Source of the DNA: Phycisphaerae bacterium | GTDB taxonomy: Bacteria > Planctomycetota > Phycisphaerae > UBA1845 > Fen-1342 | NCBI GenBank assembly: GCA_030612705.1 | Contig: JAUWNI010000002.1 | Span: 1-64,000, forward strand | DNA length: 64,000 nucleotides | Direction: 5' to 3' | Shown: one piece after another, positions 12,285-45,357 of the stretch | Numbering within the stretch: position 1 is the first letter of the stretch | How the letters are laid out: the number at the start of each line of letters is the position of its first letter | Made by a program: the position numbers and the translations under genes | The notes under the pieces: generated by a model | Databases searched by the model: none | Told to the model about the DNA's origin: nothing | What the model saw: only the letters and a program-made list of their open reading frames with translations

Positions 12285-12650
12285 ATGAAAGCACTGGTTG
12301 TCGACGACTCCATGACGATTCGCCGCATAGTGATTAAGGCCCTCGGGATCGCGGGCATCGCAGACACGACCGAGGCCGGCGACGGCGTGGAAGCGGTGGA
12401 CGCGACCAAAGCCGATAAGTTCGACGTCATCCTGCTCGATTGGAATATGCCGAAGATGTCCGGGATCGATACGCTGCGCGCGATTCGCCAGGCCGGGGAC
12501 AAGACCCCGGTCATCATGGTGACGACCGAAGCCGAGAAGTCGCGTGTAATCGAGGCAATCAAGTCAGGGGCGAACGACTATCTGATCAAGCCCTTCTCGC
12601 CGGATCAATTGGCCGAAAAGGTCAAAGGGGTGGTTGGGGCACCGGCCTAG
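12285..12650 (+). CDS. cheY: Chemotaxis response regulator CheY
   Basis: MKALVVDDSMTIRRIVIKAL...DVILLDWNMPKMSG...VTTEAEKSRVIEAIKSGANDYLIKPF. Confidence 0.96.
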   Translation: MKALVVDDSMTIRRIVIKALGIAGIADTTEAGDGVEAVDATKADKFDVILLDWNMPKMSGIDTLRAIRQAGDKTPVIMVTTEAEKSRVIEAIKSGANDYLIKPFSPDQLAEKVKGVVGAPA

Positions 12651-12858
12651 AGCTTTGTCTAGGTTGATTTGATGGGTAGTGTTTCTTTCGAGGCCGTGAT
12701 AATACTTGAAGAAAGCAACATACTCGAAGAGCCGCGGACTTCAGCCCGCCCGGTCCTTCGGAAAGGGTAAATTCTACTCCCCGTGGCGCCGCGCGGACTG
12801 AAGTCCGCGGCTCTTCATCGGTTCGCACAGTCGATCGTATTTGTGAAACGGAGTACTC
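12647..12858. repeat. B-type CTAG-bounded TIR element
   Basis: CTAGAGCTTTGTCTAGGTTGATTTGATGGGTAGTG left end matches 35381-35415; core GCGGACTTCAGCCCGC...GCGGACTGAAGTCCGC. Confidence 0.85.
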
Positions 12859-12934
12859 GATTCCTCCGCGCGTCCGACGTCAACAGACACGGTCGGAATG
12901 ACATTCATACGCCACCCACTTTCGTGACGCTCAC
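12858..12934 (-). repeat. A-type repeat (GAATGTCATTCCGACC family), inverted
   Basis: GATTCCTCCGCGCGTCCGACG...CACGGTCGGAATGACATTC is the reverse complement of the copies at 27647 and 40319. Confidence 0.8.
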
Positions 12935-13110
12935 CCCCACTCGCGATAAACCCCGAAGCAGTCTGGCTGTACCAATGGCGACCAGTTAAGATAAAGGATT
13001 AAAGGACTGTGAACGAGTGTTCACCGATCTTGGCACGCGCTGCAGATCGCGGCGTAACAGAATGATCTTTCCAGGTTTCCTGCGATGGGCTGACCAGAGA
13101 GAAACGTAGT

Positions 13111-17603: not shown

Positions 17604-17765
17604 TTACTTGCGAGCTTTCTTCTTAGTAGCTTTCTTCTTCTTGGTAGCCTTCTTCTTAGTAGCTTTCTTCTTCTTGGCTACCTTCTTCTTCTTGGCTACC
17701 TTCTTCTTGGCTACTTTCTTTTTGGCAGCTTTCTTCTTCTTTGCGACTTTCTTCTTCTTTGCCAT
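17604..17765 (-). CDS. Lysine-rich H1/Hc-like DNA-binding protein
   Basis: MAKKKKVAKKKKAAKKKVAKKKVAKKKKVAKKKKATKKKATKKKKATKKKARK; GAGGTG ribosome-binding site upstream. Confidence 0.75.
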   Translation of the reverse strand: MAKKKKVAKKKKAAKKKVAKKKVAKKKKVAKKKKATKKKATKKKKATKKKARK

Positions 17766-27646: not shown

Positions 27647-27742
27647 GGGTGAGTGTCAAGAAATAGGGTGGCCACGAAAATGTGTGGTATCTGAATGTCA
27701 TTCCGACCGTGTCCACCGACGGCGGACACGCGGAGGAATCTA
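27647..27742 (+). repeat. A-type repeat
   Basis: GGTGAGTGTCA...CTGAATGTCATTCCGACCGTGTCC...CGGAGGAATCTAGTGC, same as 40319-40398. Confidence 0.8.
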
Positions 27743-27861
27743 GTGCGTTGCCACTGCTAAAGATGCGGGTTGTAGCGTCGGCTCCCTGCGGCACGTCGAC
27801 GCGCGGACGCCTCACGACAGCCTGCGTCGGGCACGGAGACCCGACGTAACGTGTGGCACCG
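27740..27861. repeat. C-type CTAG/TIR element, inverted relative to 40557-40698, right end degenerate
   Basis: CTAGTGCGTTGCCACTGCTAAAGATGCGGGTTGTAGCGTCGG...CGTCGGGCACGGAGACCCGACG. Confidence 0.85.
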
Positions 27862-34260: not shown

Positions 34261-35241
34261 ATGAGAACCGTCTCTGTGTTTGTCGTCATCGTGGGACTGG
34301 CAACCATCGGCGCGGCATCGGCCGCCGACGTTGATTATTACGGATTGATCGCGCAGTCCGCGAATGCTTCCGAAGCGAAGGAATCCGGGGATACGGGCGC
34401 GGCGGAGCGGGAGGCGCGGATCGACTTGACGTTGGCGCGGAGCCGCCTGGAGTTGGTGCTGGCCAGGAAGGCGCTGCGCAGGCATCAGATTAAGGATGCC
34501 GCGGTTCGGGCCCAACGCGTGTTGAATTTGCTAAAGGAGTTGCCGCGCGAGGTGGACGCCAGCGAATACGAATTGCAGGCGGAAGGGATTCTGGCACGGG
34601 CCGCCAAGGCGGGGGTCGACGTCGAAACATTACGCCGGCAGGTGCCGGACGACCATAGCTATCGCCCGGGCAAGGGAATCTTCGACACCGGTGCTGTTCC
34701 GGGACGCGATCGGCAACGCGATCATTACGAGGAAGCTTTGCGCAAGGCGTATTCGGCTGACGCGGCCCGGCTATTGACTGAGGCGGACGAAGCCCGTGTG
34801 GTGCCGGCCGGCGACATCGCCTATCCCGACGACTGGCCCGAGAAGGTCGCCAAGCGGGACAAGTACGCCGGCGGCCAGATCGCCCGCTCGGAGAGTTGGT
34901 ACGACCAGGACGGGCATGAATGGTATGTGGCGGTTTACGACATCTACGATCTGATATACGTCCCGCCCGATTTCCAGCCGACGTTCTGCCTGGATCCGGT
35001 GGAGGACCTGCGCAATACGCTCGATCGGCACGCGCTGCGCTTGGGGTATGGCTGCTTCGGCGGACTATACCCGTGGGACCTCAACATGACCATGCCGCTG
35101 CTGCGTTGCTTCGGCGGGGTGGACGATTACGCTTGGCGCGGACCGAAATACAGCGTCGAGCGCCAGGAGCAGATTATAGAGATGATCAAGGCATTCACGA
35201 CGAAGCCGACCGAGAGCAAGATTATCCCGCTGTCACCCTAG
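34261..35241 (+). CDS. Hypothetical secreted protein
   Basis: Signal peptide; starts 2 bp after the upstream stop; stop codon TAG lies in the D-type repeat terminus. Confidence 0.75.
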   Translation: MRTVSVFVVIVGLATIGAASAADVDYYGLIAQSANASEAKESGDTGAAEREARIDLTLARSRLELVLARKALRRHQIKDAAVRAQRVLNLLKELPREVDASEYELQAEGILARAAKAGVDVETLRRQVPDDHSYRPGKGIFDTGAVPGRDRQRDHYEEALRKAYSADAARLLTEADEARVVPAGDIAYPDDWPEKVAKRDKYAGGQIARSESWYDQDGHEWYVAVYDIYDLIYVPPDFQPTFCLDPVEDLRNTLDRHALRLGYGCFGGLYPWDLNMTMPLLRCFGGVDDYAWRGPKYSVERQEQIIEMIKAFTTKPTESKIIPLSP

Positions 35242-35383
35242 TGCTCTGTGACGCATGGAATGGTGGATAACACGAGGGGTGGCCCACCTCTTTAGAGGTG
35301 GGGGACACGAATGGGGCATCGCTTCGCGTCCCCCACGGCTAAAGCCATGGGCCACCCATCAAGCGATGTGTAACAAAGCACTA
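35239..35383. repeat. D-type CTAG/TIR element
   Basis: TAGTGCTCTGTGACGCATGGAATGGTGGATAACACGAGGGGTGGCCCACC...GGGCCACCCATC...ACAAAGCACTA. Confidence 0.9.
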
Positions 35384-35582
35384 GTGCTTTGTCTAGGTTG
35401 ATTTGATGGGTAGTGTTCCTTTCGCGACCGTGATAATATTAGGAGAAGGCAACAATACTCGAAGAGGGCAACAATACTCGAGGAGCCGCGGACTTCAGTC
35501 CGCGCGGTCCTTCGGGAAGGGTAAATTCTACTCCCCGCGACTCCTCGGGTTGAACCCATCAAAGCAACACTGACGGAGCACC
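35382..35582. repeat. B-type TIR element
   Basis: Left TAGTGCTTTGTCTAGGTTGATTTGATGGGT; right end reverse complement GTGCTCCGTCAGTGTTGCTTTGATGGGT; abuts the D element through a shared TA. Confidence 0.88.
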
Positions 35583-35731
35583 AGCGTATTGTCACGAAGC
35601 ATTTGACGGGTAGCACCGGCGAGCGGCTTTCGGATCGCAGTATAAGCAGCGTCCGGCCGGAACGAGCGCGAGTAACAATCGACAGGCCTGGCCTCGGCAA
35701 TGAAATGCTAAACGGATATAAGGAGACTTCG

Positions 35732-36418: not shown

Positions 36419-36517
36419 GGAGAAAGAACACGTAGGTGGGCACTGCCCACCCTACTGGTCGACCCACCACCGACGAGCCGCACGACGTGATGATTGATGG
36501 AACGCCTGTGTTTGTCT

Positions 36518-37122: not shown

Positions 37123-37136
37123 TGGAGAAATAACAC

Positions 37137-37281
37137 CTAGTGCTTTGTCACATCATAATTTTCGGGTGTCTCGGGCGTCTCGCCCGAGAATCACACGGGC
37201 GGGACGCCCGAGATTTCCACAGGCGAGACGCCTGTGCCACCCTTGATGTTATCCATCATTCCATGTGTGACAGGGCACTAG
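37137..37281. repeat. E-type CTAG/TIR element
   Basis: CTAGTGCTTTGTCACATC ... ATGTGTGACAGGGCACTAG; right end homologous over ~45 bp to D-type left end. Confidence 0.9.
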
Positions 37282-37331
37282 GATGGGCACTGCCCACCGC
37301 TCTTCTGACACAGCCGTGCAATCGCGAGGGT

Positions 37332-40318: not shown

Positions 40319-40398
40319 GGTGAGTGTCAGGGAAGTGGGTAACGCCTGAATGTCATTCCGACCGCGTCCGCCGTCGGTGGACGCGCGGAGGGATCTAG
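40319..40398 (+). repeat. A-type repeat
   Basis: GGTGAGTGTCAGGGAAGTGGGTAACGCCTGAATGTCATTCCGACC...GGAGGGATCTAG. Confidence 0.8.
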
Positions 40399-40556
40399 TG
40401 CTCCGTCAGTGTTGCTTTGATGGGTTCAACCCGAGGAGCCGCGGACTTCAGTCCGCCCGGCGCTGCGTGGAGTAGAATTTACCCTTCCCGAAGGACCGGG
40501 CGGGCTGAAGCCCGCGGCTCTTCATCTGGATGCGAGGCGTTATTTTTGAGGCACTA
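40395..40556. repeat. B-type CTAG/TIR element
   Basis: CTAGTGCTCCGTCAGTGTTGCTTTGATGGGTTCAACCCGAGGAGCCGCGGACTTCAGTCCGC...GGCACTA. Confidence 0.88.
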
Positions 40557-42604: not shown

Positions 42605-43978
42605 ATGAAGAAATGGTATCTCCTCCTGCTGGTCGCCGTCGCGATCGGCGGCATCTGGTATTATTTGCGCACATACGTCCGCTACCGCCCCGAGTGGGAC
42701 AAAGCCAAGTTCGGCGAGGTGACCCGCGGCGACATCCGCGTGCCGATCACCGCTTCCGGCCTGATCGAGGCCAACGAGCGGATCAACATCAAGTCCGAAG
42801 CTTCCGGCCGGGTACTCGAGATCAATGTCGTCGAAGGTGATTACGTCAAAAAGGGTGAAGTCCTCGCCCTGCTCAAGAAGGATGACGAGGAGCGCCGGCT
42901 CGTTCAGGCCAGCGCCAACCTCGATCGCGCCAAAGCCGCGCTCGTCAAAGCCCTGGTTGCGGTCGAACAGGCCAAACAGAATATCCTCAGTGCCGAGGCC
43001 CGCGTGGAGGAGATCAAAGGGAGTGGCGAAATAATTGCCATCGATCTGGAATGGGCGGAGGATATCAAAGAAGTCGGAGGGGCCAGCGAAAAAGAACTTC
43101 GAGTACTGCGGACCCGCGCGCGGATCAATAAGGCTCAGCTACGGAATGCTGACGCGAACGTGAAAATAGCCGAGAACAACCTGCTGGATGCCGAACAGAA
43201 TGTCATTATCCAGCAGGCCGCGCTCGAGGAAGCTCGGCAGCAGGTCGAGGATGCCGAAGAGCGTCTTTCCGAGACCACCATCCGCGCCCCGCAGGACGCG
43301 ATCGTCACCGAGGTGTACGTCGCCGAGGGCGACCTGGTGCAATCGGCCACGCAGGGCTTTACCGGGGGCACCCCGGTGATGACGTTGGCGGACGTTTCCA
43401 AGCTGAAGGTAATCACGCGGGTCGACGAAGCGGACATCGGCCGGGTGTACCAGATCTCGCCGGTCGACGCGTTGCCCGAGATGCCGCAGTTGAAAGAAGC
43501 GGCCCGCGAGAACGAGGAGCTGTTGGAGAAACGCTCGGGCCGGGTGAAGCTGACGGTCGACGCGTTTCCCGACGACACCTTCGAGGGGCTGATCGAGCGC
43601 GTCGAGCCGCAGGGCAAGCTGAATAAAGGCTCGGCGATCATCCAATACGATGTGCACGTCGAGGTGATCGACGAGCACCGCTACACGCTGCCGCTCGGCA
43701 CGCAGGCCCAGGTCGAGTTCACCGTCGAAAGCGTGAGCGACGCCCTGCTGGTTCCGGCCGAGGCCGTCATGACGTTTCAGGACGAGCGCGGCGTGTGGAT
43801 CAAGACGCCGCCGCCGTCCGGCTCGCTGGATCCGTTCGGCAAGAAATTCATTCCGTCTCGTTTCGGGATTACCGATGGCGCTCATACACAGTTAATCGCG
43901 ACGGTCACCGGCGAGGAAATCAAAGAAGGACAAAGCGTTCTCACCAAGCTGCCGCGAGAACGCAAGGAAGAGGACTAG
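42605..43978 (+). CDS. HlyD/MacA-family periplasmic adaptor
   Basis: N-terminal TM, biotinyl-lipoyl-like halves, long coiled coil, RIDE-like LPLGTQAQVEFTVES; stop codon TAG lies in the D-type repeat terminus. Confidence 0.9.
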   Translation: MKKWYLLLLVAVAIGGIWYYLRTYVRYRPEWDKAKFGEVTRGDIRVPITASGLIEANERINIKSEASGRVLEINVVEGDYVKKGEVLALLKKDDEERRLVQASANLDRAKAALVKALVAVEQAKQNILSAEARVEEIKGSGEIIAIDLEWAEDIKEVGGASEKELRVLRTRARINKAQLRNADANVKIAENNLLDAEQNVIIQQAALEEARQQVEDAEERLSETTIRAPQDAIVTEVYVAEGDLVQSATQGFTGGTPVMTLADVSKLKVITRVDEADIGRVYQISPVDALPEMPQLKEAARENEELLEKRSGRVKLTVDAFPDDTFEGLIERVEPQGKLNKGSAIIQYDVHVEVIDEHRYTLPLGTQAQVEFTVESVSDALLVPAEAVMTFQDERGVWIKTPPPSGSLDPFGKKFIPSRFGITDGAHTQLIATVTGEEIKEGQSVLTKLPRERKEED

Positions 43979-44120
43979 TGCTCTGTTGCACGTGGAATGA
44001 TGGATAATACGAAGGGTGGCCCATCTCTTTAGAGGTGGGGGACACGAATAGGACTTCGATTCGCGTTCCCCACGGCTAAAGCCATGGGCCACCCATCGAA
44101 TCAAGAGAGACAAAGCACTA
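43976..44120. repeat. D-type CTAG/TIR element, copy 2
   Basis: TAGTGCTCTGTTGCACGTGGAATGATGGATAATACGAAGGGTGGCCCATC...GGGCCACCCATCGAATCAAGAGAGACAAAGCACTA. Confidence 0.92.
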
Positions 44121-44145: not shown

Positions 44146-45357
44146 GTGCCGCTGATCCAAATTAAAGACCTGACGAAGCTCTATCGCATGGGCGAGTCCA
44201 TCGTCCACGCGCTCGACGGGGTCGATCTGGAGATCGAGCAGGGCGAATTCGTCGCAATCACCGGAGCCTCCGGCAGCGGCAAGAGCACGATAATGCACCT
44301 GCTGGGCTGCCTGGACCGTCCAACGGCGGGAGACTACCTGCTCAACGGCCGCAACGTCGGCGACATGTCCGACCGCGAACTGGCCCATATCCGCAACCAG
44401 GACATCGGGTTCGTATTCCAGACGTTCAACTTGATCAATCGCACGACGGCACTCGAAAACGTCGGCATTCCGCTGTTCTACGCGCGAACGACGAACTCGC
44501 GGGCCCCGGCCCGGCGAGCGCTCGAACGCGTCGGACTCACCCAACGCAGCACGCACACGCCCAGCGAACTGTCCGGCGGCGAACGCCAGCGGGTTGCCAT
44601 CGCCCGCGCGATCGTCAACGACCCGGTCCTGCTGCTGGCGGACGAGCCGACCGGAAACCTCGATACCCGCACCGGTGAGCAGATCATGGAGATCTTCAGC
44701 TCGCTCAACGAACAAGGCGTCACGATCATACTGGTCACGCACGAGCACGACGTGGCGATGCGGGCCAAACGTGTCGTGCAGATGCGCGACGGGAAAATCG
44801 TCCTGGACAAGTTGACCAGAGACATTCACGTGGATGCGGGCGAATCGCCGACGGCCAGGCCCGCCGACATTCCCGCGCTTCAACCGGCGTCTGTGCCCGA
44901 AGCTCCTCCCGCGCCGGCGGAAAGCGCTCCCGGTAACGCCGAACCGCTCGAAGCCACTCCCACGGTCAAGATGAAGCCCCGGCTGGCCGCTGGGGTGAAC
45001 GGTGCGTTTGGCTGCGGCTTGGCGGCACCGCTGTTGTTGCTGCTGGGGATCGTCATGCTGATCGTGATGCAGACGCGTTTTCATCCGAGCGAGTTCTCAC
45101 CCGAGAAACCCCCACCGTTGGCGCTTGCCGTCCTCGGGATCATGTTGTTGTGCCTGTTACTGTCGATAATTGCCGGACTTATCGGTTTTTTCTGGGGACG
45201 GGCGGTCCTGAAGCGGATCCGCACCGTGCCGGGGTCATGGATCGGGAAGGGCCGTGCCCGGACGGCCTGTATTTGCGGACTGACCACCGTCCTGATCCCG
45301 CTGGCACTTTTCGGCTTGAACATCGTCGTTTGGATGACGCGGACGGCAAGAGGCTGA
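44146..45357 (+). CDS. MacB/LolD-type ABC ATPase with Pro/Ala linker and C-terminal TM segments
   Basis: GASGSGKSTIMHLLGCLDRPTAG, LSGGERQRVAIARAIVNDPVLLLADEPTGNLD; C-terminal third hydrophobic; GTG start. Confidence 0.9.
   Translation: MPLIQIKDLTKLYRMGESIVHALDGVDLEIEQGEFVAITGASGSGKSTIMHLLGCLDRPTAGDYLLNGRNVGDMSDRELAHIRNQDIGFVFQTFNLINRTTALENVGIPLFYARTTNSRAPARRALERVGLTQRSTHTPSELSGGERQRVAIARAIVNDPVLLLADEPTGNLDTRTGEQIMEIFSSLNEQGVTIILVTHEHDVAMRAKRVVQMRDGKIVLDKLTRDIHVDAGESPTARPADIPALQPASVPEAPPAPAESAPGNAEPLEATPTVKMKPRLAAGVNGAFGCGLAAPLLLLLGIVMLIVMQTRFHPSEFSPEKPPPLALAVLGIMLLCLLLSIIAGLIGFFWGRAVLKRIRTVPGSWIGKGRARTACICGLTTVLIPLALFGLNIVVWMTRTARG

Follow-up and report, generated by a model that had tools for sequence, protein, structure and literature searches.

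Stop codons at element junctions

This report concerns a family of short repeat elements in a Phycisphaerae bacterium, the ends of which coincide with the stop codons of genes. The window examined is a stretch of 64,000 nucleotides (positions 1 to 64,000 of contig JAUWNI010000002.1) from a draft metagenome-assembled genome (MAG) of 4.4 Mb. One of the elements, E1, lies between two genes of an operon-like array. The upstream gene (42605..43978, + strand) encodes an HlyD/CusB-type membrane-fusion protein, as judged from its open reading frame (ORF), its coding score and matches to Pfam HlyD_D23 and HlyD_3, and the named relatives of this protein come from Planctomycetota MAGs. Its TAG stop at 43976-43978 (...GAC TAG TGCTCTGT) is formed at the junction with E1, a 141-bp element resembling a miniature inverted-repeat transposable element (MITE) that spans 43978..44118, runs from GTGCTCTGT to ACAAAGCAC and has the form of a long imperfect hairpin. 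The first two bases of the stop (43976..43977) would be the left copy of a TA target duplication, by analogy with the empty and filled sites described below, and the right copy (44119..44120) is followed by C. Many sequences related to the 146-nt copy at 43975 are present on other contigs. The downstream gene encodes an ABC transporter ATPase (44146..45357, + strand; ORF and Pfam ABC_tran) and would follow that stop by about 25 nt if E1 were removed. This gap is also short in relatives, and in genomes G010 and G012 the ATPase start is at or directly after the stop.

Two other stop codons in the window are placed in the same way. A gene of unknown function (34276..35241, + strand; sequence and coding score), the product of which has no Pfam match, ends with TAG at 35239-35241 (...CCC TAG TGCTCTGT) at the junction with E2 (35241..35381), an element that is 86% identical to E1 and flanked by TA at 35239-35240 and 35382-35383. 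A CheY-like response regulator gene (12285..12650, + strand; ORF and Pfam Response_reg) ends with TAG at 12648-12650 (...GCC TAG AGCTTTGT) at the junction with E4 (12650..12856), the left end of which is TAGAGCTTTGT. All three stops were read directly from the sequence, and the first-pass annotation, which had reported a repeat terminus opening with an in-frame TAG at 12648, 35239 and 43976, was right in each case. Its account of the copies needs amending in two places. For the copy at 12648 the right end survives only in decayed form, and its position is an estimate (ACGGAGTACTCG at 12848). At the 35239 copy a second element, E3 (35384..35581), has inserted in tandem directly at the right CTAG of E2, and the right TA of E3 has decayed to CA (35582-35583).

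Element structure and target site

The genome was sampled as 20-kb stretches totalling 1.53 Mb, about 35% of the draft MAG. Genes were called with a home-made caller that uses a codon-usage model, and every element terminus in the sample was classified. Inverted repeats, GTGCTYYGT...ACRRAGCAC, form the ends of the elements, and TA lies on either side. They are short, between about 100 and 340 bp overall, and most of the 34 complete elements are 100-210 bp; the internal sequence is palindromic and there is no transposase gene. TA is present at both flanks of the copies listed. When the flanks of complete elements are joined, CTAG is restored in 24 of 34, and the base preceding TA is C at 91 of 117 ends.

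The duplication of TA is shown by an empty and a filled site within the window. Element E5 (37140..37278) is inserted in a copy of another repeat, and a paralogue of that repeat (36423..36451, + strand; ..AAAGAACACGTAGGTGGGCACTGCCCACC) has the empty site. The empty repeat at 36423-36451 is GAACACGTAGGTGGGCACTGCC and its insertion point reads AACAC-GTAGG-TGGGCACTGCC, while the filled copy at 37126-37298 reads TAACACC-TA-[element]-TA-GGATGGGCACTGCC. Tandem junctions with the pattern GCWCTAGWGC, including the one at 35382, occur 18 times compared to about 0.9 expected from base composition. This expectation was used instead of a reversed-pattern control (20 matches), since the reversed pattern contains GATC and is misleading.

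Several further repeats are found with the elements. The hairpin core of E1 and E2 (query positions of about 40-121) has core-only matches in at least 10 places and is found either way round with respect to the termini, and the internal palindromes seem to be exchangeable between element families. The ends TAGTGCGTYGCCACTG mark a second terminal family, which likewise uses CTAG as its insertion site and is located next to the first at 27740, 40557 and L106:12012-12474. Another repeat, GAATGTCATTCCGACCG...CGCGGAGGAATCTAG, is located directly beside the ends of elements at CTAG in three places (27691-27746, 40346-40401 and 12848-12935, one of them inverted) and possibly forms composite units with the elements. 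At L106:12586-12603, at a stop codon, 12 nt of a terminus are duplicated in tandem (TAGTGCTCTGTCTAGTGCTCTGTC).

Probable transposase link and spread

Two transposase-related fragments have been located in the genome. Contig C165 carries a fragment of an IS630-type transposase that scores above the cut-off for Pfam DDE_3 and reaches 95.1 bits for NCBIfam transpos_IS630, the cut-off of which is 100. The fragment runs into the end TAGTGCTCCATTACATCTCGATTGATGG (read inward), and up to 24 of 28 nt of this end match MITE ends. A second, deleted element on contig C67 has the ends TAGTGCGTCGCCACTG and a weak helix-turn-helix (HTH)-like N-terminus (a sub-threshold match to HTH_23). Taken together with the inverted ends and the TA duplication, these remnants make it most likely that the repeats are IS630-type MITEs. 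The TAGTGCGTYGCCACTG family is also seen on the internally deleted IS630-like element of C67.

The 4.4-Mb genome has 221 matches to the terminal pattern TAGWGCTYYGT and 17 to its reversed control. G007, a genome from another genus, has 166 matches to the pattern, but the congener G001 has only 2, which is below the control for that genome (7). Since the elements are abundant in the first two genomes and nearly absent from G001, their distribution points to a recent and lineage-specific spread. A large number of element ends are found no more than 260 bp from the end of a contig (for example G000:C5, C7, C27, C28, C38 and C45), so the repeats probably break the assembly and the real copy number is probably higher.

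Is the stop codon supplied or preserved?

Does the element supply a new stop codon or preserve one that was already there? The heading of the first-pass annotation stated that the repeat supplies the stop of the upstream gene. This could happen if an element were inserted in a Tyr codon (TAC or TAT) near the 3' end of a gene, so that the TA+G junction trims a few residues. The flanks were joined for the 11 complete elements located at stops and read TAG in 8, TAA in 1 and TAC in 2. Joined flanks are thus already a stop in 9 of 11 cases, and the element usually preserves an ancestral stop; for most genes the earlier wording was too strong. Only the HlyD-like gene and one other, at L097:4833, both with TAC, could be true new stops. 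For the HlyD-like gene the joined flanks at 43976 read GAC TAC CCG AGA AAC AAG GTC TGA, which would add six residues (YPRNKV) before a TGA.

Orthologues provide a second line of evidence. They were taken from G001, G015 and G013, genomes with 2, 2 and 6 pattern matches (not above controls) and protein identities of about 50-80%. For 15 of 19 genes bearing an element, the closest orthologue ends within 2 residues of the gene's own end. The first-pass annotation had named read-through in orthologues as a result that would count against its proposal; those without the element mostly stop at the site. The same closeness is seen for 9 of 12 control TAG genes that have no element, and rank tests (p=0.15 and 0.26) give no bias to longer orthologues at element-bearing genes. 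Orthologues of the CheY-like gene end at 0, +2 and +5 residues, and those of the 34276-35241 gene at +2 and +31. The orthologues of the HlyD-like gene end at +1, 0 and 0 residues and not at +6, and most HlyD relatives in the family have their ends close by. Together with the right TA copies of other elements, which have also decayed, these ends favour a mutation from G to C in the downstream copy, which is not under selection, as the origin of the TAC at 43976, a true truncation by six residues being less likely. Truncation as a general cause was rejected from the joined flanks and the orthologue ends, and the creation of new stops by insertion in Tyr codons is considered unlikely.

The idea that an insertion into a CTAG stop leaves the protein as it was has held up, because the TA is duplicated and the first base of the element is G, and the orthologue ends are mostly unchanged.

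The hairpin in the 3' untranslated region

It is also possible to suppose that the elements are kept at gene ends since they are useful, either as terminators or as hairpins in the 3' untranslated region (3' UTR) that stabilize or process the mRNA. The hairpins of E1 and E2 are very stable, at -69.6 and -80.9 kcal/mol (z about -8), and their terminal stem includes the stop codon. The bias of the elements to 3' flanks and their enriched overlap with stops, described below, would fit such a role. However, no terminator-like site with a U-tract is present on the + strand between 42500 and 44600, around E1, and 14 of the 25 elements overlapping a stop are upstream of a co-directional gene, including the ABC transporter ATPase gene that follows the HlyD-like gene. 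A terminator at these sites would often be polar, and the termination role that had been suggested for the elements is therefore regarded as unlikely. Across 21 copies only 1 of 31 pairs has a compensatory change on both sides, so that covariation does not support selection on the RNA fold, and the congener G001 has almost none of the elements. Usefulness at gene ends, in either form, seems distinctly improbable, and we infer that the 3' UTR hairpin has little or no regulated role. An intrinsic terminator, with a hairpin followed by a U-tract, was rejected as no U-tract was found around E1. Among Rfam families only a tRNA scored above the gathering threshold in the window, with no match to the elements.

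Enrichment at stop codons

Of the 117 pattern matches in the genome sample, 25 match the position of an in-frame stop exactly, 84 fall between genes and 7 fall in coding sequence, where several resemble chance matches. Among the ends that face the 3' end of a gene, 25 of 60 are exactly at the stop. As the target is CTAG, the fair comparison is with other CTAG sites. Insertions of the CTAG type are at a stop in 24 of 95 cases, compared to 31 of 312 noncoding CTAG sites that are free of elements (odds ratio (OR) 3.15, p=2.3e-4, in a matched test that leaves out two coding-only clusters; the Fisher tests take insertions as independent). The OR is 2.8 (p=0.001) when divergent regions are excluded, and the short loci of G007 replicate the result with 9 of 43 compared to 2 of 67 (OR 8.6, p=0.003). 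In this sample, the count of in-frame TAG starts against CTAG density that the first-pass annotation had proposed genome-wide comes out as an enrichment over random expectation.

Proposed mechanism

The interpretation that we hold with high confidence is that the repeats are IS630-type MITEs that insert into CTAG, that the stop codon is preserved and that the survivors have accumulated on stop codons. The non-autonomous elements of about 100-340 bp would be moved in a cut-and-paste manner by a transposase into the TA of CTAG, with duplication of the TA. Since an element starts with G and ends with C, CTAG would become C-TA-[G...C]-TA-G. When the target is at the end of an ORF (..C TAG), the left junction would still read TAG in frame and the original G would lie after the right TA; the protein would be unchanged and so the insertion would survive. 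Insertions in coding sequence would be purged, which would leave the CTAG sites at stop codons among the few tolerated targets, and survivors would collect there. Each insertion would also leave fresh CTAG sites at which further elements could land.

Several points weigh against this interpretation. No intact transposase and no complete autonomous copy was found in the 89%-complete genome, which has two fragments only, and the present-day mobility of the elements is unproven. For the HlyD-like gene and one other, the TAC means either that the right-hand copy has mutated or that the insertion has cut the ORF short. The enrichment is borderline when only sites within 150 nt of a stop are compared (OR 1.85, p=0.08). 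There is an excess over CTAG density, of which a general preference for 3' flanks, or survival there, accounts for a part, as the drop in the OR near stops indicates. The proposal that gene ends are a safe niche thus stands as far as the enriched overlap with stops is concerned, while a part of that enrichment belongs to the general 3'-flank bias.

Could some additional cue, for example transcription, terminator hairpins or DNA supercoiling, instead direct the transposase to stops or 3' ends? CTAGs at stops carry an element more often than intergenic ones do (OR 3.2, and 8.6 in G007), which is what such targeting would produce. However, this excess shrinks close to stops, as given above, and the same pattern arises if insertions elsewhere are removed by purifying selection. 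Directed targeting has little probability, and selection rather than a targeting factor is probably behind the enrichment at stops. A bolder form of the proposal is that a transposase lineage combines the CTAG specificity with a further bias to 3' ends, so that stop codons act as a standing safe harbour where repeated landings are harmless. We regard it as quite doubtful; if true, stop-codon targeting would be an evolved avoidance strategy and not a by-product of selection. Coincidence, in which the overlap is simply the share of CTAGs that happen to be stops, predicts some overlap because 61 of 357 TAG stops in the sample have a CTAG context, but it is very improbable and was rejected by the CTAG-matched comparison, in which about 10% of noncoding CTAGs are stops compared to 25% of insertions, a difference repeated in a second genus.

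Relation to known elements

The stop codons of pneumococcal BOX elements were reportedly studied by Croucher et al. in 2011. In Streptococcus pneumoniae, BOX elements encode the stop of 36 genes, and alignment with orthologues did not yield strong evidence that these genes had been truncated (PMC3049150). The elements described here share the repeat-encoded stops and lead to the same conclusion, although BOX is built from boxA, boxB and boxC modules and has other termini. A 2013 survey found that the GTAG termini of REP elements often give a TAG stop to flanking ORFs (PMC3733652). These REP elements are also palindromic and located near the 3' ends of genes (PMC3733652), but they are 20-40 bp in length and associated with RAYT tyrosine transposases, whereas the present elements are 100-340 bp with a TA duplication and a DDE-type transposase. 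Compared on length (mostly 100-210 bp), inverted-repeat ends and TA duplication, the copies do not belong with the GTAG REPs.

The RUP element of S. pneumoniae is a MITE of the IS630/Tc1-mariner family and is linked to IS630-Spn1 (PMC2229807). RUP-type MITEs resemble the present elements in that they are small and non-coding with terminal inverted repeats, a TA duplication, many intergenic copies and, probably, ends in common with an IS630-type transposase remnant. The present elements differ in their terminal sequence, their marked preference for CTAG, their several exchangeable internal palindromes and their planctomycete host. IS630 itself, from Shigella sonnei, prefers TA within CTAG as its target and duplicates the TA, according to the account of Tenzen and Ohtsubo (1991) cited in PMC2170065. 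It differs in being autonomous, and no consequence for stop codons seems to be considered in that account. A literature search of partial coverage found no paper that joins IS630-type MITEs with CTAG stops.

The effect on stop codons is already known for BOX and GTAG-REP elements, and what is gained here is a clean mechanism together with an extensive data set from an uncultured lineage. A four-base target that regenerates the stop gives a testable reason why elements that duplicate TA and have a terminal G gather at gene ends. For annotators, it means that a stop codon inside the end of a repeat is usually ancestral and not the result of truncation.

Elsewhere in the window, a short gene for a Lys/Ala-rich repeat protein (17604-17765, - strand) is made of tandem TTCTTCTTGGTAGC units, as read on the + strand, and resembles a histone H1-like tail.
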